From Marinomonas arctica (GTDB lineage Bacteria; Pseudomonadota; Gammaproteobacteria; Pseudomonadales; Marinomonadaceae), in assembly GCF_003259225.1 (NCBI RefSeq), contig NZ_QHJF01000011.1:124001-188000 (forward strand): a stretch of 64,000 nucleotides of DNA. Direction: 5' to 3'. This document shows positions 26,572 to 49,102 of this stretch, in pieces. Under the pieces are notes generated by a model that saw nothing but the letters and a program-made list of their open reading frames with translations, did not search any database and was not told the origin of the DNA. The first letter of the stretch is position 1. Each line of letters begins with the position of its first letter. The position numbers were made by a program, and so were the translations under genes.

Positions 26572-27039
26572 ATGAAGTTTGAAGGTTTAAAAGCAATTGC
26601 GGTAGTCGATGGGATAAAAGGTGTGTTGGCCTTATGCTTGGCTCTGAGCGTCAATGCAATTGCTAAACAAGACCTTCACCAGCTTGCTGTTCAAGTAATG
26701 CAAAACTGGCCAATTTCACCAAGTAATTATTATGTTAATCTGCTGTTAACCTTTGTCGAGAGAGCCACTCAGCAAGATCATATATTAGTTATCTCCATTT
26801 CTCTGATGTATGCCTGCTTTCGCTTTGTTATAGCCTATGGGTTATGGCATAAACTGCGCTGGACGGAATGGTTCGCTTTCATCAGTGGCTCACTTTATAT
26901 TCCCTTTGAGCTCTACGCTATTTATCAAAATCCCAACCATGTTAACTTCGCAATACTGCTGCTTAACTTATTGGTTGTGGCTTATTTGTATTGGGTGCTT
27001 AAACGTGGTGAAAAAGCGTTAGCGATGACCGCCAAATAG
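26572..27039 (+). CDS. DUF2127 membrane protein
   Basis: A 155-residue integral membrane protein with four likely helices. The opening LKAIAVVDGIKGVLALCLAL and the later AYGLWHKLRWTEWFAFISGSLYIPFE are characteristic of DUF2127. No function is known. The GNAT gene follows after 16 bp, so the two may share a transcript. Confidence 0.8.
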   Translation: MKFEGLKAIAVVDGIKGVLALCLALSVNAIAKQDLHQLAVQVMQNWPISPSNYYVNLLLTFVERATQQDHILVISISLMYACFRFVIAYGLWHKLRWTEWFAFISGSLYIPFELYAIYQNPNHVNFAILLLNLLVVAYLYWVLKRGEKALAMTAK

Positions 27040-27055
27040 GAGAGATTTTAGTTTT

Positions 27056-27475
27056 ATGAATATCCGTCAATACGAAGAAAAAGACAGAAAAACGGTGATT
27101 GCTCTATGGAATCAATGCGGTTTGGTAGCCCCTCAGAATGACCCGCATAAAGATATTGATCGCAAACTGAAGGTGGATGCTGACTTGTTTCTTGTTGGCG
27201 TTGTTGATAATGAGCTAGTCGCTACTGTAATGGGAGGCTATGAAGGTCATCGTGGCTGGATTAATTATTTGGCCGTTAGCCCAGATCACCAAAGAAAAGG
27301 CTATGGACAAGCCATTATGAAAGCAGTTGAAAGGTTAATCATAGCCAAAGGTTGTCCTAAAATTAATTTGCAAGTGCGTAATACGAATCAAACCGTCATC
27401 GCATTTTACAATGCGATTGGTTACGGCAATGATCAAGTTGTTAGCTTAGGAAAGCGCTTCGAAAACGATAATTAA
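27056..27475 (+). CDS. ypeA: GNAT acetyltransferase, YpeA type
   Basis: A 139-residue N-acetyltransferase. The acetyl-CoA loop is HQRKGYGQAIM in the family Q/RxxGxG/A form. The segments APQNDPHKDIDRKL, TVMGGYEGHRGWINYLAV and KGCPKINLQVR match E. coli YpeA closely. Its acceptor is not known. Its stop codon overlaps that of the convergent RpiR gene by 4 bases, leaving no room for a terminator between them. Confidence 0.85.
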   Translation: MNIRQYEEKDRKTVIALWNQCGLVAPQNDPHKDIDRKLKVDADLFLVGVVDNELVATVMGGYEGHRGWINYLAVSPDHQRKGYGQAIMKAVERLIIAKGCPKINLQVRNTNQTVIAFYNAIGYGNDQVVSLGKRFENDN

Positions 27476-28332
27476 TGCTTCCATTCGATTTGTTTGGTAT
27501 CGCCCATCTTGCCGTCACTGTTGAGGCGATACGCCAAAGCGACGAGTAGGGTTTGAGCCAATGTCATAGAGGAAGTAAGGGAGCGAAACCCTAGCACTTC
27601 CGCTTCTTTTATATCAAAACAAACATTTGAAAGAGCGGCTAATGGGCTGATTTTACTGTCGGTAATGGCAATGATTTGTGCGCCCGTTTTAAATGCATAT
27701 TCGCTGACATTGACGGTTTCTTTAGCATAAGGACTGAATGCGGTGGCAATGACGACGTCACCTTCACGAATGTTGCTGGCTTGTTCAATTAACATACCGC
27801 CTCCACCGTCGATAAGGTGAGTGGTTTTGTTTAAATGTCTTAAACTGTAGGCAAAGTAGCTTGAAATAGGAAAAGCGCGGCGTAAACCAATGAGGTAAAT
27901 GTTGTGCGCGTTTTCGAGTAAATCGACCGCCTTGTTGAGCATTTCTTGAGAGAAGTGGTGGTTCATATGGTTCATCGAGAACGCATTACTGCTGCTGAAT
28001 TCTTCTAGAATATGCGAGGCATCAATCGTGGTACTGAGGGTGCTTTTGCTTAACTTAACCCGTTCGCTATAGCTGGATGTTTGTTCGACGAGCGCTTGCC
28101 GAAACAAATTTTGCATTTCACTAAAGCCGTTGTATTCAAAAGCTGCCGCAAAACGAACCAATGTGGAGGGTGGGACATCGCATTGCTCAGCCAGACTTGC
28201 CACTGTTTCTAGGGCAACTGTATTGGGGTGCTCTAGTAAAAAACGCGCCACTTGTTGTAAGCGTTTACTTAAATCGTCGTAGTTTCGACTAATGGCTTGC
28301 TGTAGTTGGTCAAGAGAAGTTGGTGCGCCCAA
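27472..28332 (-). CDS. RpiR-family transcriptional regulator of inositol genes
   Basis: A 286-residue regulator with an N-terminal HTH (VASLAEQCDVPPSTLVRFAAAF) and a C-terminal SIS domain that would bind a phosphorylated sugar or inositol metabolite (YLIGLRRAFPISSYFAY, TAFSPYAKETV, ITDSKISPLA). RpiR proteins commonly control iol genes in proteobacteria, and this one lies next to the inositol transporter and iol operon. The start is TTG, chosen because AGGAG sits 7 bases upstream and no in-frame ATG occurs before the HTH. It may be co-transcribed with the binding-protein gene upstream. Confidence 0.87.
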   Translation of the reverse strand: MGAPTSLDQLQQAISRNYDDLSKRLQQVARFLLEHPNTVALETVASLAEQCDVPPSTLVRFAAAFEYNGFSEMQNLFRQALVEQTSSYSERVKLSKSTLSTTIDASHILEEFSSSNAFSMNHMNHHFSQEMLNKAVDLLENAHNIYLIGLRRAFPISSYFAYSLRHLNKTTHLIDGGGGMLIEQASNIREGDVVIATAFSPYAKETVNVSEYAFKTGAQIIAITDSKISPLAALSNVCFDIKEAEVLGFRSLTSSMTLAQTLLVALAYRLNSDGKMGDTKQIEWKH

Positions 28333-28412
28333 AAATGGCTCCTAAATTGTGATCTATATAGTTGTTTAACGGTTCGCATTATAGCGATATTTCGTTGTAA
28401 ATACTTATTGGT

Positions 28413-28458
28413 TTCTCAGCCAGCGACAAGCTAGATCAGCATTGCCGATGGTTGAGAA
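28413..28458 (-). other. Hairpin between the binding-protein and rpiR genes
   Basis: TTCTCAGCCA (28413-28422) pairs with TGGTTGAGAA (28449-28458) with one G-U pair and a long loop. Such a structure may stabilise the binding-protein mRNA relative to the regulator message. I see no clear T-run. Confidence 0.35.
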
Positions 28459-28505
28459 GTTGTGCTGAGATCAATCATGACCTCGGCTATTTTGATTAAA
28501 TTGAA

Positions 28506-29465
28506 TTAACGGAATTCACCTGCGTATTTTTCAACCAGTGCAATGTTGTCTTTGGTGATGAAACCAGGGCCAGAGTTCACATCGTTACTTGGAATCAAGC
28601 CGTAACGAGTGTAAAGCGTCAAGAAGCTGATAGGTAGGTAACCTTGTAAGTAGGGTTGTTGGTCAATAGCAAAGTTAATTCGACCATCTTTAATGGCTGC
28701 TGAAATTTCCCCACTTAAATCAAAAGTACCGAAGTAAATGTCTTTAAGATTGCGGTTTTTTTCCAGCGCTCGCAACGTTGGATGCGCTGAGGTTGGCCCT
28801 AAGGTTAGAATTGCTTCAGTATTTGGGTTCTTACGCAGGTAAGCCGATACTTTGGTTTCTACATCGGTCGGATCCGATCCAGAGTCGATCATCTGACTAC
28901 CTAATTCAACACCTAAACCTTTGGCAAAGCCCATGCAGCGCTCTACAGACGCTGGGTTAGTAATATAGTGGTTAACACACAAGAAGGATTTCACTCCTTG
29001 CTTCTTCGCTCGCTCACCAGCGCCCAAACCTGCTGCAAATTCAGGCTGTCCCACATGCAATAATGCCCCTAATGCTTTGGATTGTTCTTGGGTGCCTGAG
29101 TTCATCGTAATGAACGGAATGCCTTTTTTAGCGGCTTTTTCTAATGGGCCTTCTAAGGTATCGAAGTCTGCAATTGATAGCACAATACCATCAGGGTTAG
29201 TAGCCACGGCTTGTTCAACGATTCGTGCCATATCGGCTAAATCCCCTGTGGGTGGGTTACGATATTCGACGGTGACGTTCATATCGGAAGCAGCTTGTTT
29301 AACCGCGTTTTTAATTACGTTCCACCATGAATCAGAATCTGGTGCGTGGGAAATGAACACATAGCGTTCGCCTTCAGCGTGCGCCGCGGTGGACATTGAT
29401 ATCACGCCTAATGTCGCAGCACCTGCGACTAATATGGCTGTACTTTTCTTTAGAAAGTTTTTCAT
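28506..29465 (-). CDS. Periplasmic sugar/inositol-binding protein of an ABC transporter
   Basis: A 319-residue type I periplasmic binding protein (ribose/inositol-binding group). The signal peptide ends near AHA-EGERY (about residue 30). The core segments FISHAPDSDSWWNVIKNAVKQA, DGIVLSIAD, TMNSGTQEQS and TLGPTSAHPTLRAL are typical. Its position, divergent from the permease and beside iol genes, indicates myo-inositol as ligand, in the manner of IbpA. The ATG at 29465 has GGAG upstream at good distance; a GTG 6 bases earlier would be too close to it. Confidence 0.88.
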   Translation of the reverse strand: MKNFLKKSTAILVAGAATLGVISMSTAAHAEGERYVFISHAPDSDSWWNVIKNAVKQAASDMNVTVEYRNPPTGDLADMARIVEQAVATNPDGIVLSIADFDTLEGPLEKAAKKGIPFITMNSGTQEQSKALGALLHVGQPEFAAGLGAGERAKKQGVKSFLCVNHYITNPASVERCMGFAKGLGVELGSQMIDSGSDPTDVETKVSAYLRKNPNTEAILTLGPTSAHPTLRALEKNRNLKDIYFGTFDLSGEISAAIKDGRINFAIDQQPYLQGYLPISFLTLYTRYGLIPSNDVNSGPGFITKDNIALVEKYAGEFR

Positions 29466-29934
29466 TACCACTATCTCCGTTTCGTTTAATTATTTTTGTT
29501 ATTACTTATTTTTGGATTTAGCAAACACAGCTTCTGATCTATTTTTAATCAGAATTGAAGTGATATTAGAATGAATGTTTCATAATTGCAATATTTTGAA
29601 ATTTTTTATTCTGACGTGATGGTTTTCTTATATTTATTTGTTTTTAAAGGATTTATAGTTATTTTTTGACGGTTTATCTAGGTTTTTTAGGCACTTTTTT
29701 TTGTGTCTAATGTAAATTTTTATTTTGCCTATTGAATAAAATGAAATAAATATTCTATTATGGTTTCATTGTTGAAATGAAAAGACATTAAGCTCTATCG
29801 TGTTACTGAGTGCGCTTTAAACAGCAACTTATGCGAGAGTCAGAGACGTAACGAGTTGTTAGCAAAATACAACAGTTTGCTGGTACACGGTTAGAAATCA
29901 CAAAAATAAATATAAAAAAGTAAGGTGTGACGCT
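29466..29934. promoter_or_regulatory. Divergent inositol promoter region with repeated TTTCATT/AATGAAA half-sites
   Basis: A very AT-rich 469-bp region between the binding-protein gene (-) and the permease operon (+). Three copies of one heptamer lie close together: AATGAAA at 29740-29746, TTTCATT at 29764-29770 and AATGAAA at 29776-29782. The last two form a dyad with a 5-base spacer. GAATA at 29734 and TATTC at 29751 form a second one. A looser TTTCA/TGAAA pair lies at 29578-29601. I infer RpiR-type operators here. Confidence 0.5.
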
Positions 29935-31092
29935 ATGACTGATCAAACTCAATCGGTTGATTTATCTAAAATGGCAGAAGATAACTCAACAGAAGAAAAA
30001 TCGACTGGAGATGAACGGGTTCGCAAGGTTCCTGCTTGGAAGCGACTGTTGCATCGACCTGAGTTTGGGGCGATTTCTGGTACAGTATTGGTATTTGTTT
30101 TCTTTTTGATCACCGCGGGAGACTCCGGCATGTTTGCCTCCGATGGCATCATGAATTGGACAACCGTATCAGCGCAATTAGGCTTAATTGCGATCAGTGC
30201 ATGCCTATTGATGATTGCGGGTGAGTTCGATTTGTCGATTGGTTCGATGATTGGTTTCGCTGGCATGATGATGACGATTCCTGCTGTTTATTGGGGCTGG
30301 CCAATCTGGGGGGCGATTCTTTTTGCCTTTGCTGGTGCCATGCTAATTGGTTTTTTGAATGGCTATATTGTCGTTAAAACCGGTTTGCCGTCCTTTATTG
30401 TTAGTCTTGCTTTTCTTTTCATGTTGCGCGGTTTGACCATCGCCCTGTCTATTTTATTTACTAATCGCACCATAGTGGGTGGTATCGACAAATACGCCGA
30501 TGGAGATTGGCTCGCGGCGGTGTTTGGCGGTGTCATTGGTAAAAGTCTGTTTGTCTGGTTTGCTAATATCGGCTTGATTAGCTCTTACGATGATGGCACC
30601 CCAGTGGTTGAAGGTATTCCTATGGTGATTGTCTGGTGTGTATTTCTTGCCATCGCTGCAAGCTGGATTCTATTACGTACGAAATACGGTAACTGGATTT
30701 TTGCCACAGGTGGTGATGATAAAGCTGCTCGTAACGTTGGTGTGCCAGTTGATAAAGTCAAAATATCTCTGTTTATGTTCACGGCATTCACCGCAACGGT
30801 TTACGCTGCTTGTCAGGTGTTTGAATTTGGTTCCGCCTCCGCTGACCGCGGTGTTTTAAAAGAGTTTGAAGCCATTATTGCCGTGGTAATCGGCGGTGCG
30901 TTACTGACTGGCGGTTATGGCTCGGTGATTGGCGCGTGTTTTGGTGCCTTGATATTTGGTGTCGTGCAAATGGGCATATTCTTCACCGGTATCGATTCAG
31001 ATTGGTTCCGCGTGTTCTTGGGAGCCATGTTGTTAATCGCGGTTTTGTTCAATAACTACATTCGTAAAAAGGTGACAGAGGCGCGTCATTAG
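29935..31092 (+). CDS. Inositol ABC transporter permease
   Basis: A 385-residue membrane protein of the RbsC/BPD_transp_2 group with about ten hydrophobic segments after a charged N-terminal tail. Family landmarks are LLMIAGEFDLSIGSMIGFAG, FLNGYIVVKTGLPSFIVSL, GGDDKAARNVGVPVDKVK and AIIAVVIGGALLTGGYGSVIGACFGA. It starts the + strand operon: the ATPase gene follows after 53 bp and the catabolic genes after that. Confidence 0.9.
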   Translation: MTDQTQSVDLSKMAEDNSTEEKSTGDERVRKVPAWKRLLHRPEFGAISGTVLVFVFFLITAGDSGMFASDGIMNWTTVSAQLGLIAISACLLMIAGEFDLSIGSMIGFAGMMMTIPAVYWGWPIWGAILFAFAGAMLIGFLNGYIVVKTGLPSFIVSLAFLFMLRGLTIALSILFTNRTIVGGIDKYADGDWLAAVFGGVIGKSLFVWFANIGLISSYDDGTPVVEGIPMVIVWCVFLAIAASWILLRTKYGNWIFATGGDDKAARNVGVPVDKVKISLFMFTAFTATVYAACQVFEFGSASADRGVLKEFEAIIAVVIGGALLTGGYGSVIGACFGALIFGVVQMGIFFTGIDSDWFRVFLGAMLLIAVLFNNYIRKKVTEARH

Positions 31093-31145
31093 TGGCGTGC
31101 CCGTATTCGAGTTTACTTTTTAGAAAAAGAATTTAGGAGAACAAA

Positions 31146-31943
31146 ATGAGCGAATTTATTATTGAATTGAAAAAAGTGAGCCGCTATTTCGGTTCGGTTA
31201 TTGCCATTAAAGACATCGATATGAAGGTGAAACTGGGCGAAGTGCATTGTTTGTTGGGTGATAACGGTGCAGGCAAATCTACCTTGATTAAAACCCTAGC
31301 AGGTGTTCATGCGCCAAGCGATGGTGAGTATTTGTTTGAAGGCAAACCAGTGGTTTTCGAATCGCCAGTGGAAGCCCTTGATTCCGGTATCGCGACGGTT
31401 TATCAAGATCTCGCATTAGTGCCCTTAATGAGCGTGACACGTAACTTTTTTATGGGGCGTGAGATCACCAAAGGGCGCGGGATTTTTAAGCGTTTTGATA
31501 TTGAAACCGCGAACCAAATTGCTCAAAAAGGCATGGCCGAAATGGGCATTAATGTCCGTGATCCTTCCCAAGCGATTGGCACCATGTCAGGCGGTGAACG
31601 GCAGTGTTTGGCGATTGCTCGCGCAATTCATTTTGGTGCCAAGGTATTGATCCTAGATGAACCAACGGCGGCACTTGGTGTGAAGCAATCGGCCAATGTT
31701 TTAAAAGTCGTCGCGAAAGCCAAAGCCAGAGGTTTGGCGGTGATTTTGATTACTCATAACGTTCATCACGCTTATCCGATTGCCGATCGTTTCACTTTAT
31801 TGAATCGTGGTCAGAGTCTAGGTTCCTTTATGAAATCCGAAGTGAGCCGTGAAGATGTATTGGAAATGATGGCAGGCGGTCAGGAGCTAGATGAACTCAC
31901 GGCTGAGTTAGAAGAGTTTAGCCGCTTGGATGCTACCGCATAA
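31146..31943 (+). CDS. Inositol ABC transporter ATP-binding protein, single domain
   Basis: A 265-residue ATPase with Walker [10 protein letters not shown], signature [14 protein letters not shown], Walker [12 protein letters not shown] and an H-loop ([11 protein letters not shown]). Most ribose/inositol ATPases (RbsA, IatA) are about 500 residues with two ABC domains. This one has only one domain, as in FrcA-type systems, so it should work as a homodimer. The ribosome site AGGAGA is strong. Confidence 0.9.
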
Positions 31944-31954
31944 GGAACGACATC

Positions 31955-33121
31955 ATGACAAAGAAACAAATGCGCGTTGGTTTGGTGGGCTCTGGATACA
32001 TGGGCAAAGCTCATGCAATAGCTTACCGAAATGCGATGGCGGCTTTTGCCATTCCCCAAGATCAGTTGCACTGCGAAATGTTAGCTGATGCGACCCCTGA
32101 ATTAGCGAAAACGAAAGCCTTAGAGTTGGGTTTTAATCGTTCGACAGGTGATTGGAAAAGCCTAATTAGCGATGCTGATATTGATGTGGTTGATATCTGC
32201 GCACCGAACTTTTTGCATAAAGAAATTGCCCTCGCTGCTATTGCCGCAGGCAAGCATGTTTACAGTGAAAAACCATTGGCACTAAACGCCGATGATGCCA
32301 AAGAAATGACCGAAGCGGCAGAAAAGGCTGGTGTGAAAACACTGGTTGGCTTTAATTACATCAAGAACCCAACGGTGCAATTTGCTAAGCAATTAATCGC
32401 TCGTGGTGATATCGGTGAGGTAGTGCATTTTCGCGGAGTCTTTAATGAAGATTATCTTGCTGACGCAAACTTACCCTTTAGCTGGCGTTTACAAAAGGAG
32501 TTTGCCGGCACGGGAGCACTGAATGATTTAGCCTCACATCTTGTGCAATTGGCCATTCATCTTGTTGCACCGATCACGTCATTGTGTGCCGATTTAAAAA
32601 TCGTGCATCAGCACCGTCCACTATCTCAAACGTCCGACGACTCGAAAGCGGGTGTTGGCGAAGTCGAAAACGACGACCAAGCACATATGATGGTGCGTTT
32701 TGCCAATGGTGCTCAAGGTACATTGGAAGCATCACGTATCGCGTGGGGACGTAAAAATGGTTTGTCGTTCGAAATTACAGGAACCAAAGGAAGCTTAATC
32801 TTCGATCAAGAAACCTTATCTGAATTGTCTTTGTATATCGCAGAGGGCAACCCTCAAACCCAAGGTTTTAAACGTATTTTAGTGGGACCGGAGCATCCCG
32901 ATTATCAGGCTTTTTGTGTATCAGCAGGTCATGGATTGGGCTTCAACGACATGAAAGCGGTTGAAATTCGGGACTTGTTCCAAGGTGTCGTTAACAACGC
33001 TCCTTTGTGGCCAGATTTTCGAGCCGCGACTCAGGTCAATATTGTTCTCGACAGCGTGGTGGAATCTGTTGATAAAAGAGCGTGGGTCGAGGTAGAGCAA
33101 TACGATGGGGATCACAGATGA
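31955..33121 (+). CDS. Gfo/Idh/MocA oxidoreductase of the inositol operon
   Basis: A 388-residue NAD(P)-dependent dehydrogenase: GLVGSGYMGKAHA dinucleotide motif, EKPLAL with the catalytic Lys, and the GALNDLASHLVQLA segment with the Asp and His of the active site. It is only distantly like the IolG encoded at the end of the cluster. It may act on another inositol isomer (scyllo- or D-chiro-inositol) or on a substituted inositol. It lies 11 bp after the ATPase gene and overlaps iolC by 4 bases. Confidence 0.85.
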   Translation: MTKKQMRVGLVGSGYMGKAHAIAYRNAMAAFAIPQDQLHCEMLADATPELAKTKALELGFNRSTGDWKSLISDADIDVVDICAPNFLHKEIALAAIAAGKHVYSEKPLALNADDAKEMTEAAEKAGVKTLVGFNYIKNPTVQFAKQLIARGDIGEVVHFRGVFNEDYLADANLPFSWRLQKEFAGTGALNDLASHLVQLAIHLVAPITSLCADLKIVHQHRPLSQTSDDSKAGVGEVENDDQAHMMVRFANGAQGTLEASRIAWGRKNGLSFEITGTKGSLIFDQETLSELSLYIAEGNPQTQGFKRILVGPEHPDYQAFCVSAGHGLGFNDMKAVEIRDLFQGVVNNAPLWPDFRAATQVNIVLDSVVESVDKRAWVEVEQYDGDHR

Positions 33122-41655: not shown

Positions 41656-42069
41656 CTATTCAAATTCGGCAATAGATTGCTCGACTTTTTGTCTTATATC
41701 ATCAGGAAACGGAATAGCTGCTTTTGCGGCTTTGGAGAAGCATACATAGGTGACATCGGCTTCAACGACGGGGGTGTTTGTTTCTACATTGATGATGGTT
41801 TGTTTCATGGTGATACTACGATTACCGATCTTAGTGTAATGGGTCTGTACTTCGAGCAGGTCGCCGAAGTTGGCTTCGGATTTAAAGTTGATGTTTATAT
41901 TCACCACAGGCCAGACCAGATCTTGCTGCATCCAGTCGTCTTTATCGAAAAACTCATCAAAAAATGCCCAACGACCTTCTTCAATAAATTCTAAATAGCG
42001 GGCGTTGTTGACGTGTTGGAACAAATCTAGGTGATAACCACGTACTTTGATTCTTGTTTTGTTGAACAT
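41656..42069 (-). CDS. Acyl-CoA thioesterase, hotdog fold (4HBT/YbgC type)
   Basis: A 137-residue hotdog-fold thioesterase. The active-site signature VRGYHLDLFQHVNNARYLEFIEE has the Asp and His/Asn of the 4HBT group. The start is the ATG at 42069, with GGGGA 8 bases upstream; a GTG at 42084 would overlap that ribosome site. It is a single gene, unrelated in content to the neighbouring iol and LacI genes. Confidence 0.85.
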   Translation of the reverse strand: MFNKTRIKVRGYHLDLFQHVNNARYLEFIEEGRWAFFDEFFDKDDWMQQDLVWPVVNININFKSEANFGDLLEVQTHYTKIGNRSITMKQTIINVETNTPVVEADVTYVCFSKAAKAAIPFPDDIRQKVEQSIAEFE

Positions 42070-42179
42070 GCTGTTTTTCCCCACATAAAAATATCAGTCA
42101 AGAAGGTTACGGTTCTTCAAAAGGGAAGCAAATAACAAAATCGCTCGATTTTACTAACAGAGAATCTTGATGGTTGCGT

Positions 42180-43196
42180 TTAGCGTGGACGAACCGAGTG
42201 TCTCCAAACGGGCGGAGCGTGAAATATTAGATGCTGTTTTTTGCGCTCTTTATCAGAAGCATTTTCCAGTAATGTTGAAATGGCATCGGCCATTGCGCCA
42301 AGTGGTTGCGCAAAGGTGGTGAGTTGATAGCCAAGCCAACTGGCTTGTTCTATGTCATCGAATCCGACAATGCAAATATCTTCTGGAATACGTAGACCAA
42401 ATTCCTTTTTTGCAACATCCATAAAGCCACAGGCGATCAAGTCGGTAACACAAAAAACACCATCGGGTCTGTCCCGTGAAGCCAATAAACGCCGTGCTGC
42501 ATCAACGCCCGTTTGGTAGCTGGTGGGGCCAGCCCGTAGTAGGGTACAAGCTTGATTGGCGTTTTCTGCCGCTTTAATGAACAAGTTTTCACGGGCCAAT
42601 AAGCTGGGTGATTGAATCGTAGACGAGACAACCGCAAGATTGCTACAGCCCGCTCGTAGCAGCATGTGATGGGCGTCAGCCATGGCAGATTGGTAATCTA
42701 TGCTGATGTGGTCTGTGCCTTCAAATTGTCCGGCACGGTTCACAAGGATCACTTGTTGACCACTTTGTACACAAGTTTCAATCAAAGTAGTTTGTGGTGT
42801 GCCAGATAAAACAATGGTTGCCGAGGCGCGATAATTTAACGTTTGACGTAACGCCGCATCTGCACTGGCTTCGCCACCAGAGGTATTGATTACCATGACG
42901 GCTCGACCTGCTAGTTGAAGGCGCTGGGTGAGAGCGTCGAGCAAACTGGCTTGGTATGGGGCGTTAAGATTGGCACCAAGAATACAAACAGGGCGACTTT
43001 TCTCGCTGGATAAACCACGGGCAAGATGATTGACGTGGTAATTCAGTTCTGCCGCAGCAGCAAGTACGCGTTCACGTGTGTCTTTGGAAACGCTCGCACC
43101 TTGTGTAAAGGTGCGAGAAACAGCGGACCGAGAAACGCCAGCGAGTCTGGCAACCTCTGCAGCGCTGGCGATGTTTTTCGGTGGTTGTTTTTTCAT
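42180..43196 (-). CDS. LacI-family regulator, last gene of the transporter-phosphatase operon
   Basis: A 338-residue repressor: HTH ASAAEVARLAGVSRSAVSRTFTQG and hinge NYHVNHLARGLSS, then a periplasmic-binding-type effector domain ending in VGFDDIEQASW and LTTFAQPLGAMA. It overlaps the phosphatase gene by ATGA and closes an operon with the ABC transporter and two phosphatases, so it should be autoregulated. Its likely operator is the palindrome at 49083, upstream of the operon. The effector may be the imported sugar or polyol or its dephosphorylated product. Confidence 0.88.
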   Translation of the reverse strand: MKKQPPKNIASAAEVARLAGVSRSAVSRTFTQGASVSKDTRERVLAAAAELNYHVNHLARGLSSEKSRPVCILGANLNAPYQASLLDALTQRLQLAGRAVMVINTSGGEASADAALRQTLNYRASATIVLSGTPQTTLIETCVQSGQQVILVNRAGQFEGTDHISIDYQSAMADAHHMLLRAGCSNLAVVSSTIQSPSLLARENLFIKAAENANQACTLLRAGPTSYQTGVDAARRLLASRDRPDGVFCVTDLIACGFMDVAKKEFGLRIPEDICIVGFDDIEQASWLGYQLTTFAQPLGAMADAISTLLENASDKERKKQHLIFHAPPVWRHSVRPR

Positions 43197-43828
43197 TTAT
43201 TTTTCATATCCTGACCAAAGCCTGCTTTGCGTAGTATTTTTTCCATGCTCGCTGCACGTTCTGCTAAGTGAATCAACGCCGGTTTTGGGGTTTCAAACCA
43301 TTCATCGGGATGAAGCTCTCGTGTTTTACGAATGTGTGCGATGGCAGAATCCAGCGTCGGGTAGCGATCAGGGTATTCAAGATGTAAAAATAAGGCAACT
43401 ATGATGACAGAACGGCTGCGTCCACCGCGACAATTCACTAAGATATTGCCTTTTTCGCGAACTTTATAAGAGGCTTTCTCAGGCAGTACTTGATCCAGTG
43501 CTGAACGCATTAAGTGATAACCTGCCAAGACCATAGATTCAGGATTACCAGGGCCGTCAATAAGGCCAATTTTATAATAACGAACACGAGCCGAACCATG
43601 CTTTAGTAAATGTTCTGGCGTATCTGGTTCCATCGAATCAACTAGGTCAATGTCTAGGTTTACAGCACAGTTTAGCACGACTTTGATGTTGTGTTTTTCA
43701 AGCAAATCCGCGTCGGCAACACCTGTGGAGCCGCCGATATAAATGTCAACGTCCCAGCCAGGAGTCTTGCTTTCGATTAAGCTAATCGGTGGACGCGGAT
43801 AATGCTTTATTAATTTTTCAGATGTCAT
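43193..43828 (-). CDS. Dual-specificity/tyrosine-phosphatase-like cysteine phosphatase
   Basis: A 211-residue protein with the cysteine-phosphatase P-loop CRGGRSRS (nucleophile C133, R139, S140) in the CxxGxxRS form. D91 in the loop LIDGPGN is a plausible general acid. The residue before the nucleophile is Asn132, where the family almost always has His (HC). No signal peptide is visible, so it should act in the cytoplasm. It lies between a monophosphatase gene (57-bp gap) and the lacI gene (4-bp overlap). A small-molecule phosphate is more likely than a phosphoprotein as substrate, but that is inference. Confidence 0.82.
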   Translation of the reverse strand: MTSEKLIKHYPRPPISLIESKTPGWDVDIYIGGSTGVADADLLEKHNIKVVLNCAVNLDIDLVDSMEPDTPEHLLKHGSARVRYYKIGLIDGPGNPESMVLAGYHLMRSALDQVLPEKASYKVREKGNILVNCRGGRSRSVIIVALFLHLEYPDRYPTLDSAIAHIRKTRELHPDEWFETPKPALIHLAERAASMEKILRKAGFGQDMKNK

Positions 43829-43885
43829 GATGTTTCGTTCTCTTTTTTGCGCTTGTCTTTTATAAGGTACAAATAAGCCAAGGTG

Positions 43886-44758
43886 TTAGGCAGTAAGTTC
43901 AAGTTCAGTCGCATGTTGGCTATTCATCGCTTCTTGGTCATTATGTTCAGCTGCAAGCGAGATCATGGTGTCATTGGAAAACTGTTCTGCCACACCGGGT
44001 GCAACAGCGAGAATGGGGCCGCCATGCGCTATCTCTTCGTGATTTTTAGGATAAACTCCCGTTCGTCCACCAGCCTCTCGAACCATGAGTAAACCTGCCA
44101 AGCAATCCCATGCGTTCATGTGTGACTCTGCGTAGCCATCGGTTCGGCCTTCAGCCACCCAAGCCAATGCCAATGCACCGGAGGCACCACGTCGAATATT
44201 GGTACCGCTTGCCAAAAGAGAAGAAACTATCGTCAAGTAGATTCCTTGGGGAACCCGTGTAGACCATCCTAATTCAAAGGAGGAACTATGAGTATCTCTT
44301 ATGCCAGAAACACGTAGAGCTTGACCATTTTTGGTGACGTATTGGTCTTTTCTAGCCAAGTACATTTCGTTCGTCGCTGGATTATAAATCGCGCCAAGTA
44401 ATGTCTCGCCATTATAAACAAAGGCGATGGAAATACAGAAATGATCTATGCCACGAGCGAAGTTGGCGGTGCCGTCAATCGGGTCAACTACCCAGAGTGA
44501 GGCATTGGTGACTGAACCTCCTGTTTCTTCCCCAAGTAATCCATCTTCAGGAAAAAGACGATAAATAGCCTGACGAATGTGTTCCTCGACCAGTGCATCG
44601 GCTTCAGTTAAAAAGTCTTGCTGTCCCTTCATGGTGAAGTCGCCGGGTTGTCTGGCGCGATAGCGTTCCAGTGCTAATGCGCCTGCGGAGAGAGTGATAG
44701 AATGTAGGGCGGCTTCGCGTTTTTCTAGTTCGCTTTTTTTGATGGTGTTGGGTGTCAA
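43886..44758 (-). CDS. Inositol-monophosphatase-family phosphatase
   Basis: A 290-residue Mg-dependent phosphatase of the IMPase/SuhB/CysQ fold. The metal ligands are visible: E77-E78 (GEETGG), D92 and D95 (DPIDGTANF), and a WDCLAG motif with a later Asp. Typical substrates are inositol monophosphate, fructose-1,6-bisphosphate or PAP. Beside an organophosphate-type transporter and the iol cluster, a sugar or inositol phosphate is likely. The start is TTG with AAGGA 7 bases upstream; the next in-frame ATG lies too deep, after residue 40. Confidence 0.85.
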   Translation of the reverse strand: MTPNTIKKSELEKREAALHSITLSAGALALERYRARQPGDFTMKGQQDFLTEADALVEEHIRQAIYRLFPEDGLLGEETGGSVTNASLWVVDPIDGTANFARGIDHFCISIAFVYNGETLLGAIYNPATNEMYLARKDQYVTKNGQALRVSGIRDTHSSSFELGWSTRVPQGIYLTIVSSLLASGTNIRRGASGALALAWVAEGRTDGYAESHMNAWDCLAGLLMVREAGGRTGVYPKNHEEIAHGGPILAVAPGVAEQFSNDTMISLAAEHNDQEAMNSQHATELELTA

Positions 44759-44787
44759 GGATGGATCCTTTTCTAAAATGTGGGATT

Positions 44788-44824
44788 GAGATCAGCTAAG
44801 AGTATTCTCGTCCTAACTGATCTC
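44788..44824 (-). other. Intercistronic hairpin between binding-protein and monophosphatase genes
   Basis: GAGATCAG (44788-44795) pairs with CTGATCTC (44817-44824), and the stem extends imperfectly to 12 of 14. A T-run follows only on the + strand. On the operon's strand it is therefore more likely an mRNA-stabilising or partial stop structure that makes more binding protein than enzyme. Confidence 0.45.
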
Positions 44825-44850
44825 TTTTTTCGTTATTAATTAAGCTATCT

Positions 44851-45975
44851 CTAGTTTATTTTTTTAAAGCTTAGGCTCCATAGATCTTGCCAGTCTTGAC
44901 GGCTTTCCCAGTCAGATTTTGCTGTAGACGCATCGTACCCCATGATTTGGTCGCGGACTTTATCGATACCTGCTGGTTCGTTATCAGGTAATTTAATGGT
45001 TTGATTGGTTGACATTTTACCGTCAACACCCTGTGGTGCGATGCCTTCGGCTGTCATCATGTAATGAATGAACAATTTTGCTGCGTTGGGGCTTTTCGTT
45101 CCCGTGGTAATGAAGCCTAAACCTGGATAGCTCCAACCACTAAATGGTACCATATCGGCACAAAGGCCTAGTTTCATGCCATTTTCGTTTTGACGAAATT
45201 TCGCTGCGCTCACCATGCCGACAAAGCTGTCTTTCACATCTGGTGCACCAACGGCATCAGCGGCTTCTGTATCAGAACTTGTGACTAATGGATGATTTTC
45301 TGCGAGTGCCTTTATGAAAGCCGCGGTGGCACTGTTTTCTTTGGTCTTTAGTGGCTTGCCGAATTCAGCTTGATAGGCATCGGCCATAGCTTTATCATGA
45401 TGTGTGGCCAGCTGGTTAAACCAATCAGTGTAAGATGGCTTGCCAAGTGGGTCTTGCATGGCGACTTTGCCACGCCATTCAGGTTTGGTCAGTTGCCAAA
45501 TATTGGTGACTGGACAGTTGTCATAAAGACCTGTGTTATAAGCCCAAATGTTGGGCGCTAAAACCACGGTAAGTGGGCTTTGATAGGTGGCTGGAATATG
45601 CTCAGCAAGATCCGTAGGAACCCAGCTGGTGACATAACCTTTAGATAATAACTGTTCCATACCTGCTGGCGCATCAGCAAGTATAGCGACGTCTGCTTTC
45701 ACATTACCCGCTTTGGCTTCACGACTTACAATTTCTAGAATTTGTGACGCTTTGGCTTTTATGCCCGTTGCTTGAACACCGTATTTTTCGCTAAAAGATT
45801 CTGCCTGTTTAACAATTTTCCCTGTGGAATCATACACAGTCAACGGCGCTTCTTGTTTTGCGGCTGCGATTAATGCTTGAAGATCAAACGAGTCTGCGGC
45901 AGAAGCAGAAATAGAACTGAGAGCTGTTAAGCTAACACTCAGAGCAAGAAGGCTTTTTTTCATCGGGAAGTTCAT
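44851..45975 (-). CDS. Fe3+/sugar-phosphate-type ABC transporter substrate-binding protein
   Basis: A 374-residue periplasmic binding protein with a signal peptide (about residues 1-26, ASA-AD). It belongs to the extracellular binding protein group that includes FbpA, AfuA and PhnS: LTVYDSTGKIVKQAESFSEKYG, YQSPLTVVLAPNIWAYNTGLY, WRGKVAMQDPLGKPSYTDWF. I do not find the paired-tyrosine iron site of FbpA near the C-terminus. That favours an organic anion, as for AfuA (hexose phosphates). The operon partners are two phosphatases. The ribosome site AAGGAAA is good. Confidence 0.85.
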   Translation of the reverse strand: MNFPMKKSLLALSVSLTALSSISASAADSFDLQALIAAAKQEAPLTVYDSTGKIVKQAESFSEKYGVQATGIKAKASQILEIVSREAKAGNVKADVAILADAPAGMEQLLSKGYVTSWVPTDLAEHIPATYQSPLTVVLAPNIWAYNTGLYDNCPVTNIWQLTKPEWRGKVAMQDPLGKPSYTDWFNQLATHHDKAMADAYQAEFGKPLKTKENSATAAFIKALAENHPLVTSSDTEAADAVGAPDVKDSFVGMVSAAKFRQNENGMKLGLCADMVPFSGWSYPGLGFITTGTKSPNAAKLFIHYMMTAEGIAPQGVDGKMSTNQTIKLPDNEPAGIDKVRDQIMGYDASTAKSDWESRQDWQDLWSLSFKKIN

Positions 45976-45999
45976 AATAGTTTCCTTTTTAAGATTAGC

Positions 46000-47184
46000 T
46001 TATGCTTGTTTAACGAAGGGTTGATTGGTGTTTTTGGGGTTAGCTTTTTTAGGGTTAGGCAATGCTGAGCTGAGCAGTAAATGGCTGTAATCAAGGTGAG
46101 TTTCTGACAAAACAAGACGCTTCTCATCATGATCAAAAAAGTGCAATGAGTGTGTGGGTAAATAGGCGTTAATTTGCTCACCTTCACGCCATTTAGGACG
46201 TGACTGAGTGGAGTGGAATAATCGGTCTTCATCCAAGCTCAATTCAATTACCCAGCTACCGCCTGTGGGCATGATGTTTTCAATGTTCATTGGCAGAGTG
46301 TTGGCGTTTGCCGTGTCGGTCAGAATGATTTCTTCAGGACGAATGGCGCAGACATCAGCGAATTTGCTTTCTGGCAGTCTGGCTAGGATATGACTGGCAA
46401 GATTCATGAGTTCATCATTGGATTCTTTTAGCTTGATCAGATTGATTTTCGGATTACCAATAAACTCCGCCACAAAGCGATTGCTCGGCTCGGCGTAAAT
46501 TTCGTCTGGTGTGCCGATTTGTTGTAGCTGTCCCTTATTCATCACCGCAATGGTATTGGCAAGGGTCATGGCTTCCCATTGGTCGTGGCTGACAAAAATA
46601 ATGGTGGTGCCAAAGGTTTGATGCAAGCGACGCAGCTCGGCGCGCATTTCGAGTCGAAGAGTCGCATCAAGGTTTGATAAAGGCTCATCTAATAGCAGCA
46701 CACCTGGATTTACCGCCAGCATGCGTGCTAAGGCAACACGTTGTTGCTGACCGCCCGACAATTGCGACGGGTAACGGTCTGCGTACTCAAGAATGCGTAA
46801 CTTGCTCATCACATCAACGCAACGTTCTTTGCGTTCTTGGGCTGGCACCTTTTGTAAGCGCAAACCAAAATCCACATTGCGTTCCACTGTCATGTGCGGC
46901 CACAGAGCATAGTTCTGGAAGACTAAACCAATACGACGCTTTTCAGGTGGAATGAAACAAGACTGATGAACAGAATCGACAACTAAATCGTCTACGGCAA
47001 TCTCCCCGCTGGTGGAATGTTCAATACCCGCAATCATACGCAAAATGGTGGTTTTGCCACAGCCCGATGGGCCTAGCAAACACATGAATTCGCCGTCTTC
47101 CACTGTCAGTGATACTTGGTCAACGGAAGGTTCAGTATTGCCGTCGTAGCATTTTGTTAGATTGGTTAATGTGATCGTAGGCAT
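46000..47184 (-). CDS. ABC transporter ATP-binding protein (PotA/FbpC/AfuC type)
   Basis: A 394-residue ATPase with Walker A GPSGCGKTTILRM, signature LSGGQQQRVALARM, Walker B VLLLDEPLSNLD and H-loop FVSHDQWEAM, plus a C-terminal TOBE-like regulatory domain (CAIRPEEIIL). This architecture fits importers for Fe3+, spermidine, 2-aminoethylphosphonate or sugar phosphates. A single base separates it from the permease gene. Confidence 0.9.
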   Translation of the reverse strand: MPTITLTNLTKCYDGNTEPSVDQVSLTVEDGEFMCLLGPSGCGKTTILRMIAGIEHSTSGEIAVDDLVVDSVHQSCFIPPEKRRIGLVFQNYALWPHMTVERNVDFGLRLQKVPAQERKERCVDVMSKLRILEYADRYPSQLSGGQQQRVALARMLAVNPGVLLLDEPLSNLDATLRLEMRAELRRLHQTFGTTIIFVSHDQWEAMTLANTIAVMNKGQLQQIGTPDEIYAEPSNRFVAEFIGNPKINLIKLKESNDELMNLASHILARLPESKFADVCAIRPEEIILTDTANANTLPMNIENIMPTGGSWVIELSLDEDRLFHSTQSRPKWREGEQINAYLPTHSLHFFDHDEKRLVLSETHLDYSHLLLSSALPNPKKANPKNTNQPFVKQA

Positions 47185-47185
47185 A

Positions 47186-49015
47186 TTAATTCTCCAGACC
47201 TTGAGCCAAACCGGTACCAGAGATCTTTTGGATCAATACGGTGCCAAGCCAAGCGATAAGCGCAATCATTAAGACCACCGCATTGGCGGCTTGGTCGTAG
47301 TTATAATCGAGTAAACGCAGTGAATACGTGGTGAGAACATCGGTGGATGGAATCGCCAAGATAATGAACAGGCTGACGCCTTTAATACCGGAAATGAACG
47401 GCAACAGAATCCCAGTCGCCAATGGTCCAGCTTGTATTGGAATAATGATTTTGCCCATGCGGCTCAACCAATTGGCACCGGCAATACGCGCCGCTTCTTC
47501 GGGTTCTTTACCCAGTTGCGTCATGGCTGCGATGCCAGATCGGCTCGCAAAGGGCATTTTTTCTGCTACGAGAGCGATGATGAGAATCAGCGGTGTCCCA
47601 TACAGCGCTGGAATCGGGCCACGCGCCACCGCGAACAAAGATAAAAACGCTGCCGCAAAGGCAATGCCGGGAACCAAGTAAGGCAAGAAGGTAATTTGGC
47701 GTAAGAAAGAGCTCACACTTTTGAATGAGCAACGTAACACCGCGTAACCGACTAACAAACCAAGCACACCAGAGATTATTGAAGACGAACCGACAATCAC
47801 AATAGTGTTCCATGCGGCTTGCCAAAATTCTGGTGTCAGTAAGATGCCGTTGCGAAGGGCAACCGTGTCTAAATTACTGCCTATCCAATAGTCGAACGTG
47901 AAGTTTTCAAGGGTAAAGCGACCGGGCAAAATCATGATGGTGGATAAAAACAGGGTCAGTAGCGGTAGAACCACACCGATCAATACAAAGGCACCCGCAA
48001 AGCCAGATGCAGGTATGCGCATACGGCCCAGCTTGCGTAATCTGTCCATATTGCCTTTGCCGCCAACAGTAACGAAGCGACGGGCTTCTTTCATCATGCG
48101 TACATCAATCAGTAAGGTCATCACGCCAATGATCATAATCACACCGGCAATGACCGCGGCTACGCCATTTTGTCGTGTGTCTAAGGCGCGATATAGTCCA
48201 GTTGCTAATGTGTCGTAGCGCACTGGTAAACCTAAAATATACGGCACCGCAAATTCGCCAATACAATCGGCAAATATCAATAAAACCGCTGACATTAGTG
48301 CAGGGCGAATCAAGGGTAATACGATAGAGAAGGTGATGACTCGTGATGGTGCACCGAGTACACGAGCGCTGTCTTCCATTTGTGTATCAAGACGGCGTAA
48401 CGCATTGCCGACAATCAGAATTACCAATGGCGTGTAATGCAAAACCAAGATAAAAACGATAGGAAAGTAACCGTAAGCCACACTGTTTGATGTGGTTATG
48501 CCTAAGGATTCTAGCCAACCGGGTTGTCCGCCAACAGTGCGGTTTTTAAAAATCGTCGTCCAAGCAAGGGCGAACGTCCACGTCGGTAACATAAAAGGCA
48601 CAATCAGCGCCGTGGCGAACCAAGCGCGTCCCGCCATGTTGGTGCGATTCACTAACCATGCCAGCACCACGCCAATACTCATAGAAAACATCACAGTGCC
48701 AGCGGCAATGGCTAAGGTGTTGTAGAGTGGTTGCCATAACAAGATTTCAGAAATACGTGAAAACAGCGTACGAACAATATAGTAAAGGGTAAAGCTGCCT
48801 TCGTCTTGATGGGTTCTTACTTCGTCTCCGGATTGCACGATAAAGGAATCCACAAGAATGGAGAGCACAGGTGCAAGAATCAAATAAGCAAAGAAAATAG
48901 CCAGAACCAGACCCATCAAATTAGCGGGTTCATGTCTGGCAACAGCAAATGAATGCCTTGCGCGTCGCCAAAGATTTGGCTTCTTTTGCTCTGTTGCGTT
49001 GAGCAGGGTGGACAT
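47186..49015 (-). CDS. Fused two-unit ABC transporter permease (FbpB/AfuB type)
   Basis: A 609-residue inner-membrane protein carrying two permease units in tandem, about twelve membrane helices in total. Each half has an EAA-type loop (ARVLGAPSRVITFSIVLPLI and EAARIAGANWLSRMGKIIIP). Fused permeases are usual for FbpB- and AfuB-type importers. It is the first gene of the operon, ahead of the ATPase and the binding protein, although binding protein first is the common order in such systems. Confidence 0.9.
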   Translation of the reverse strand: MSTLLNATEQKKPNLWRRARHSFAVARHEPANLMGLVLAIFFAYLILAPVLSILVDSFIVQSGDEVRTHQDEGSFTLYYIVRTLFSRISEILLWQPLYNTLAIAAGTVMFSMSIGVVLAWLVNRTNMAGRAWFATALIVPFMLPTWTFALAWTTIFKNRTVGGQPGWLESLGITTSNSVAYGYFPIVFILVLHYTPLVILIVGNALRRLDTQMEDSARVLGAPSRVITFSIVLPLIRPALMSAVLLIFADCIGEFAVPYILGLPVRYDTLATGLYRALDTRQNGVAAVIAGVIMIIGVMTLLIDVRMMKEARRFVTVGGKGNMDRLRKLGRMRIPASGFAGAFVLIGVVLPLLTLFLSTIMILPGRFTLENFTFDYWIGSNLDTVALRNGILLTPEFWQAAWNTIVIVGSSSIISGVLGLLVGYAVLRCSFKSVSSFLRQITFLPYLVPGIAFAAAFLSLFAVARGPIPALYGTPLILIIALVAEKMPFASRSGIAAMTQLGKEPEEAARIAGANWLSRMGKIIIPIQAGPLATGILLPFISGIKGVSLFIILAIPSTDVLTTYSLRLLDYNYDQAANAVVLMIALIAWLGTVLIQKISGTGLAQGLEN

Positions 49016-49082
49016 AGGTTATTCCCTAGAGGTGTATTTAATTTTCTAAACAATAATCTTCCTCTATGACAAGCCGATGACA

Positions 49083-49102
49083 TTTTGCACATATGTGCAA
49101 AA
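49083..49102. promoter_or_regulatory. Perfect 20-bp palindrome, probable LacI-family operator
   Basis: TTTTGCACATATGTGCAAAA is fully self-complementary and lies 68 bp before the permease ATG, in the divergent region with the pentapeptide gene. Size and symmetry suit a LacI-family dimer, and the operon's last gene encodes one. The same sequence was not seen elsewhere in the window. Confidence 0.6.

Follow-up and report, generated by a model that had tools for sequence, protein, structure and literature searches.

A conserved operon of Marinomonas arctica predicted to import inositol phosphates and dephosphorylate them in the cytoplasm

In plants and soils, phytate is one of the main stores of organic phosphorus, and the usual picture of its use by bacteria is that all phosphate is removed outside the cytoplasm. 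Uptake of a phosphate ester by an ATP-binding cassette (ABC) transporter under Pho-box control is familiar from the Ugp system. AfuABC takes in intact phosphorylated ring compounds, the sugar being coordinated in AfuA by the residues H205, D206 and E229 (PMC4546632). In the acc operon of Agrobacterium, breakdown involves a cytoplasmic phosphodiesterase, AccF, and a putative phosphatase, AccG, under the repressor AccR, for which the sugar phosphate set free in the cell acts as effector (PMC4526662). In a described phytate pathway, the induced genes include an inositol transporter and the Pst phosphate transporter (PMC7618129). Here we describe a six-gene operon on the minus strand of Marinomonas arctica contig NZ_QHJF01000011.1, lying at positions 42180-49015 of an analysed stretch of 64,000 nucleotides (the window), which encodes an ABC importer, two different phosphatases and a LacI-family regulator. 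The operon is real and conserved, and from its sequence it is best read as a system for inositol-phosphate import and dephosphorylation serving phosphorus acquisition, which in relatives of the window genome would be coupled to a phytase through a common operator.

The window ATPase is closest to the UgpC model, at a score below cut-off, while the system differs from Ugp in its binding protein, fused permease, two phosphatases and LacI operator. With AfuABC it shares the same broad binding-protein class, with weak profile and fold similarity, and we know of no LacI operator of this kind for AfuABC. The comparison with AfuABC made in the initial annotation stands as regards fold and weak profile similarity only. 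The permease is a single fused protein of 609 amino acids (aa). A further difference is that the main text of the AfuABC paper mentions no phosphatase (PMC4546632). The likeness to acc consists in ABC import of a phosphorylated compound followed by cytoplasmic breakdown under a dedicated regulator. However, acc has an oligopeptide-type importer, a GDPD-type phosphodiesterase, a DeoR-type regulator, no dual-specificity phosphatase (DSP) and a plant-tumour opine as substrate, whereas the importer families in the window are others and its operon contains no phosphodiesterase gene. Phytate degradation by MINPP, histidine-acid or beta-propeller phytases would supply the presumed substrate, and one MINPP type shares the operator. 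PMC7618129 names transporters for inositol and phosphate, as opposed to the uptake of phosphorylated inositols proposed here. In line with the initial annotation, which knew of no such gene set, no described system was found among the literature matches listed (titles and abstract openings) for the gene set or for bacterial inositol-phosphate import. In the available text of a survey of LacI regulons, inositol appears a single time, as IolR (PMC4052901), and the available portions of PMC4207669, PMC4961836 and PMC8829014 contain nothing on the Sinorhizobium copy of the locus.

All six genes are open at the positions first assigned to them, which bears out the claim of a six-gene minus-strand operon, and the gaps from permease to LacI gene (1, 24, 92, 57 and -4 bases) are compatible with a single transcript. 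The first gene (47186-49015) encodes the fused ABC permease, with BPD_transp_1 in two stretches, and is followed by the importer ATPase (46000-47184; ABC_tran and TOBE_2) and a periplasmic substrate-binding protein of 374 aa (44851-45975; SBP_bac_11). Next come an inositol-monophosphatase-family enzyme (IMPase) of 290 aa, listed with a TTG start (43886-44758; Pfam Inositol_P, E 1.4e-51), and a DSP-like CX5R phosphatase of 211 aa (43193-43828), which matches DSPc at 30.8 bits, below the Pfam cut-off of 33.5. The last gene encodes the LacI-family regulator (42180-43196; Pfam LacI and Peripla_BP_3). Among the NCBIfam models listed (for the ATPase the best 25 of 188), none was above cut-off for any of the six proteins.

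The conservation of the gene set was assessed without bias by searching 48 genomes of the genus for the binding protein, which was present in 18, the DSP being present in 20. At all 18 importer loci (the window, the 15 regions L047-L061, and L064 and L067, which were matched by coordinates to the two remaining importer places) all six genes were found. Both phosphatases thus accompany the transporter at 18/18 genus loci, and the dissociation that had been named beforehand as grounds for abandoning the proposal was not seen there. Elsewhere the unit has a sparse, scattered distribution: of 369 genomes surveyed for the class, only that of the window has the binding protein, and of 398 for the phylum, four have it, two of these being in the genus and one of the other two weak. 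A scan of named genomes based on the DSP gave 48 loci in Marinomonas, two Vibrio, Rhizobium, Agrobacterium vitis, Shinella, Devosia and many Rhodobacterales, among which DSP presence is by construction. All six genes are found at 37 of these; six have no importer permease above our threshold, and five have importer and DSP without a match to the window-type IMPase, one of them with a second IMPase type and one without a LacI match. The unit also occurs on Klebsiella plasmids, in Erwinia, on rhizobial plasmids (Sinorhizobium, Ensifer and Shinella HZN7), in Thioclava and in Devosia. Recurrence of the six-gene order in distant genera places the grouping beyond chance; a chance figure of 2e-14 was set aside as evidence, since it uses rounded genome sizes and ignores relatedness.

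Both phosphatases have the residues expected of their classes. C133-X5-R139-S140 and D91 of the DSP-like protein are invariant across 31 aligned sequences, of which the window protein is one; a C-X5-R-S signature with a general-acid aspartate is what we take to define the DSP class of cysteine phosphatases, and the window protein agrees with this both in these residues and in its structural model (pLDDT 91), for which the top Foldseek matches are DUSPs. DSPc is its sole family at E <=0.001, and no match to the PTP-like phytase family of Pfam was found. The IMPase scores 176 bits against a cut-off of 27 for PF00459, finds inositol-1-monophosphatases in the PDB at E 7e-38, and has E77-E78, D92-P93, D95-G96-T97 and W217-D218 invariant in 25 sequences, residues which we take to be the metal-site motif. 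Neither phosphatase has a signal peptide as judged by eye, no predictor having been run. In Klebsiella pneumoniae plasmids (479 aa) and in Erwinia sp. E602 (528 aa) the two enzymes are a single protein, of which the IMPase part is 56-58% and the DSP part 62-66% identical to the window proteins, and this fusion indicates that both enzymes belong to one pathway.

A DSP gene without the importer at that place lies next to a thioesterase gene beside iol genes in five genomes (loci L042-L046). These solo DSPs are 61-64% identical to the window protein in G065, G125, G149 and G177 and 85% in G169; three of the genomes have the importer elsewhere, and in G125 and G169 the binding protein was not found. 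At the five solo genes the best operator matches are 10-13 of 20 bases, that is, the operator is absent. Since the solo DSP has survived, its substrate may be a compound formed within the cell.

Upstream of the permease gene, a general inverted-repeat scan located the palindrome TTTTGCACATATGTGCAAAA (49083-49102, no strand), the presumed LacI operator; no other place in the window matches it with 3 mismatches or fewer, the mean expected by chance being 0.01. No conserved CG-centred LacI palindrome was found. After 11 loci duplicating others had been dropped, upstream regions were compared in 40 loci without and 15 with a metallophosphoesterase gene. At least 14 of the 20 operator bases are present before the permease in 39 of the 40 (Marinomonas, Vibrio, rhizobia, Rhodobacterales, Klebsiella and Erwinia) and in 7 of the 15. 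A scan of the 48 genus genomes at <=2 mismatches gave 20 places in 17 genomes, namely 16 importer promoters, three promoters of MINPP phytase genes far from the operon, and one stray copy inside an open reading frame of a genome without the operon, while the backwards sequence gave no match in the same genomes. The two other importer promoters of the genus have 16 of the 20 bases. For the operator check, 9 of 11 histidine-phosphatase places were fetched. Among them are four MINPP genes of a 554-aa type, and each has the operator, with 17-19 of its 20 bases, some 100 bp upstream of the probable start, the fourth, at 17/20, being outside the three found at <=2 mismatches. The regulon that shares its operator with a phytase occurs in relatives only, the window genome having one operator site and no MINPP. 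The LacI protein of the operon is presumed to bind the palindrome. The operator is absent from histidine phosphatase genes in Vibrio salinus and in three Rhizobium (11-13/20), and from the Klebsiella KdgM promoter (12/20), which has no strong Pho box either (9/14).

Directly after the palindrome lies a Pho-box-like repeat, ATGTCATCGGCTTGTCAT (49066-49083, minus strand), a presumed PhoB site. It agrees at 12 of 14 bases with CTGTCATNNNNCTGTCAT (CTGTCAT-N4-CTGTCAT, which we take as the Pho box consensus) and is the best match in the window, where 8 matches were found at <=3 mismatches against 4.97 expected. A Pho box of at least 11/14 stands at exactly +19 from the operator start in 21 of the 40 loci without metallophosphoesterase, the background rate per position in the same upstream DNA being 0.0019. 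These loci include many related Marinomonas and also Rhizobium, A. vitis, Falsirhodobacter, Paracoccus, Poseidonocella, Rhodobacter capsulatus and Thioclava. The promoter has the Pho box expected of a Pho regulon member, PhoB control is predicted, and a Pho box at such a fixed distance suggests a role in phosphorus acquisition.

A phytase-like gene adjoins the operon in two lineages, Klebsiella plasmids and Vibrio sp. HDW18, the flanks of the 48 named loci not having been systematically searched. In all three annotated Klebsiella plasmid records read, of four found, genes for a KdgM-type porin and a histidine-type phosphatase lie directly upstream; the best PDB matches of the phosphatase are Klebsiella 3-phytases (E 8.5e-82), and the AppA phytase model matches below cut-off. 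The Klebsiella pneumoniae cassette of porin, phosphatase and importer (L110, L122 and L123) is situated on IncFIB or IncFII plasmids between insertion sequences, which suggests that it is mobile. In Vibrio sp. HDW18 a gene of 516 aa is divergent from the permease, and the operator lies within the gap of about 174 bases between them. The encoded protein matches 6rxd, a histidine acid phosphatase, at E 5e-70 and 7zgf, a MINPP, at E 9e-66, and carries the HAE motif, which we take as a MINPP marker. For comparison, one protein of each Marinomonas type was searched against the PDB: the 554-aa type matched 6rxd at E 2.9e-67 and 7zgf, named as MINPP, at E 1.6e-66, and the 459-aa type matched 7zgf at E 3e-85. 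PF00328, the histidine phosphatase family of MINPP, is present in 10 of the 48 genus genomes, and all 10 are among the 18 with the operon (p 6.7e-6). With either PF00328 or PF02333, the latter presumably the beta-propeller phytase type, the figures are 16/18 operon genomes and 6/30 others (Fisher p 3.6e-6, uncorrected for descent).

From these data it is probable that the operon imports and dephosphorylates phosphorylated inositols, in the first place lower myo-inositol phosphates formed from phytate by extracytoplasmic phytase action. The initial annotation had proposed an organophosphate importer coupled to two cytoplasmic phosphatases, and this is upheld, with inositol phosphates as the best candidate in view of the operator shared with MINPP, the adjoining phytase-like genes, the fusion and the Pho box. 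Gene content, conservation, the fusion, the places of operator and Pho box and the phytase-like neighbours in two lineages are read directly from the sequences, while the substrate, the enzyme activities, the effector and the pairing of regulator and operator are inferred. The binding protein and ABC importer would carry an inositol phosphate into the cell, where the IMPase-family and DSP-type enzymes would take off phosphate in the cytoplasm. The LacI protein would act on the operon's palindrome and on the copy upstream of one MINPP type in genomes that have it, so that uptake and outer degradation may be switched together, and its repression would probably be relieved by an inositol phosphate. 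PhoB may add phosphate-starvation control in many lineages. The gain would be mainly phosphorus, while free inositol could feed the iol pathway where a genome has one.

A number of observations weigh against this assignment. Relatives of the binding protein, about 45% identical, occur without these phosphatases in Shinella sp. WSC3-e and on an Agrobacterium plasmid, and the binding-protein fold is shared with binders of iron, citrate, opines and hexose phosphates. The operator is weak or absent in 8 of the 15 metallophosphoesterase loci, and it is absent from the 459-aa MINPP type, five of whose seven loci were fetched. A Pho box at +19 is missing from 19 of the 40 loci without metallophosphoesterase, two of which (L072 and L078) have it at +20, and from all 15 with it. 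No phytase is annotated in the plasmid operon stretches of Erwinia, Sinorhizobium, Ensifer, Shinella HZN7, Thioclava and Devosia, and neither PF00328 nor PF02333 is found in the window's own genome or in operon genome G145. PF02333 alone is not associated with the operon (6/18 operon and 6/30 other genomes, p 0.32). When descent is taken into account with an rpoB tree, three comparisons speak for the phytase association, none against it, and five show no difference (p 0.25); with so few independent pairs p 0.05 is out of reach, and shared descent may explain part of the association. Outside the genus PF00328 shows no clear excess: it is present in both Vibrio and in four Rhizobium, which makes 6 of 28 operon genomes, and in 5 of 37 controls, an intended 38th control (G837) without a PF00328 match having been excluded because it has the binding protein.

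For the Proteobacteria at large, we see evenly balanced grounds for a wider proposal, in which such units would form an unrecognised inner half of phytate use, with an importer, DSP and IMPase enzymes that are sometimes fused, and a LacI protein that senses an inositol phosphate and drives MINPP. Of its two versions, the one with a Pho box would scavenge phosphorus; the other, which has a metallophosphoesterase, sometimes a Na/Pi transporter, and no Pho box, would perhaps serve carbon use with phosphate export. Eleven of the 48 named loci, and the Sinorhizobium, Ensifer and Shinella plasmids, have a metallophosphoesterase gene (PF00149) after the DSP. A gene of the Na/Pi cotransporter family is present as well in five of the 11 and in Sinorhizobium and Ensifer, and some loci have a second IMPase. 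We also count these 11 loci in favour of the main assignment. In this version the compound may be a carbon source whose phosphate is disposed of. If the assignment is true, the dedicated import of partly dephosphorylated inositols would fill a gap in phytate use, and bacterial DSP-like phosphatases now annotated with protein dephosphorylation would gain a metabolic role. It would also explain the Klebsiella and rhizobial plasmid cassettes in which the permease is at present labelled 'iron ABC transporter permease', and binding proteins and regulators tuned to the ligand could serve as inositol-phosphate biosensors.

The binding protein was modelled at pLDDT 92, and Foldseek places it nearest to metal-citrate, ferric, opine and hexose-phosphate binders, with AfuA and the glucose 6-phosphate binder VcA0625 among the matches. 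Such a fold is common to several ligand classes, so the ligand is not decided by it. One alternative is a general importer of sugar or polyol phosphates like AfuABC, with broad cytoplasmic phosphatases, for which inositol phosphates would be at most one of several ligands. IMPase-family enzymes are broad in substrate, which counts in its favour, as do the two hexose-phosphate binders among the fold matches and the weak match of the binding-protein profile to AfuA (4r72, E 1.6e-5) besides iron-binding proteins. The operator scan, however, ties the importer to MINPP only, apart from the one stray copy, the phytase-like genes adjoin the operon in Klebsiella and Vibrio sp. HDW18, and the word phosphatase occurs 0 times in the main text on AfuABC (PMC4546632). 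We hold this alternative to be rather unlikely.

The metallophosphoesterase loci bear on another possibility, to which we attach a small chance, namely that the imported compound is a phosphodiester, for instance glycerophosphoinositol or a sugar phosphodiester of opine type, which would be cleaved inside and then dephosphorylated, as in the agrocinopine system acc. The enzyme after the DSP in those 11 loci and rhizobial plasmids, the Na/Pi transporter and two IMPases found in some, a hydrolase of the metallo-beta-lactamase (MBL) fold at this place in a distant variant, and the IMPase-family gene and Na/Pi transporter in the acc-like cluster of pAoF64/95 would all fit. On the other hand, no gene for such an enzyme is found in the window operon or between the genes of the gamma-proteobacterial operons read, and MINPP and histidine phytases act on phosphomonoesters.

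Import of 2-aminoethylphosphonate or another phosphonate is very improbable. The ATPase has UgpC and PhnT2 as its best NCBIfam matches and the permease matches PhnU2, all below cut-off, Pho-box control would suit a phosphonate system, and the relative of the binding protein in Shinella sp. WSC3-e (45% identical) belongs to an importer beside a phnD-type gene. That importer has neither IMPase nor DSP, though, and is for this reason a separate system. In the seven other plasmid operon stretches read, the annotation shows no gene for phosphonate degradation beside the operon, which has two enzymes of phosphomonoesterase type instead. The Shinella importer lies at L119 4976-10098, and the identity of about 45% refers to an alpha-proteobacterial member of the family.

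Iron import of the FbpABC type, with the phosphatases in the operon by accident, is unlikely, and we give it hardly any weight, as ferric-binding proteins are indeed among the sequence and fold matches but the phosphatases are conserved and fused, and the Pho box and the MINPP-shared operator speak against it; Fur sites were not looked for. The window protein has no adjacent tyrosine pair (YY), which we take to be the FbpA-type iron site, in agreement with the earlier remark that it lacks an obvious one.

Some distant loci differ from the window in their enzymes. In Martelella, a Rhodobacterales bacterium, Pannonibacter and Alloyangia (L108, L109, L186 and L187), an operon consists of ATPase, binding protein, permease, an MBL-fold hydrolase in the place of the IMPase, DSP and LacI regulator. 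Two IMPase-DSP pairs surround one importer in Sinorhizobium and Ensifer (L112, L113 and L124), with a short RpiR-type gene near. On pSymA of Sinorhizobium meliloti (L121 7944-12500), a related importer is followed by a CobC/GpmB-type histidine phosphatase, matched below cut-off, which replaces IMPase and DSP.

It had further been proposed that the product is passed to the iol genes directly before the operon. On the opposite strand of the window, iolG, iolB, an iolA-type dehydrogenase gene, iolE, iolD and a fused iolC/J are all above cut-offs. The iol genes are thus adjacent as described, except that a YbgC/FadM-type thioesterase gene (41656-42084) intervenes after the LacI gene, between the operon and iolG; the same thioesterase gene accompanies the solo DSP genes in related genomes. 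In the genus, iolG is in the stretch read at 7 of the 18 operons (window, L050, L054, L055, L059, L060 and L061). As to co-occurrence, iolD is present in 11/18 operon and 12/30 other genomes (p 0.23), that is, without association, and 7 of the 18 operon genomes have no iolD above the family cut-off. Independent pairs on the rpoB tree lean the opposite way (0.5 to 1.6), and the nearest tree relative of the window genome (G175) has iolD and no operon. The operator is not found in the iol region of the window. An obligatory link with inositol catabolism is rejected on co-occurrence, independent pairs, operator scan and locus contents, and a specific delivery of the product to the iol genes is not borne out by the iolD counts or the operator.

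At L044, L050, L055 and L060, iolD and its neighbours are gone from the iol cluster beside the operon or solo DSP, iolB and iolG being kept and iolD lying elsewhere. Beside the iol genes of the window (26572-33121) there is a second ABC importer, with a rhizopine-type binding protein (below cut-off), permease and ATPase, together with an RpiR-type regulator and a levoglucosan-dehydrogenase-like oxidoreductase, also matched below cut-off.

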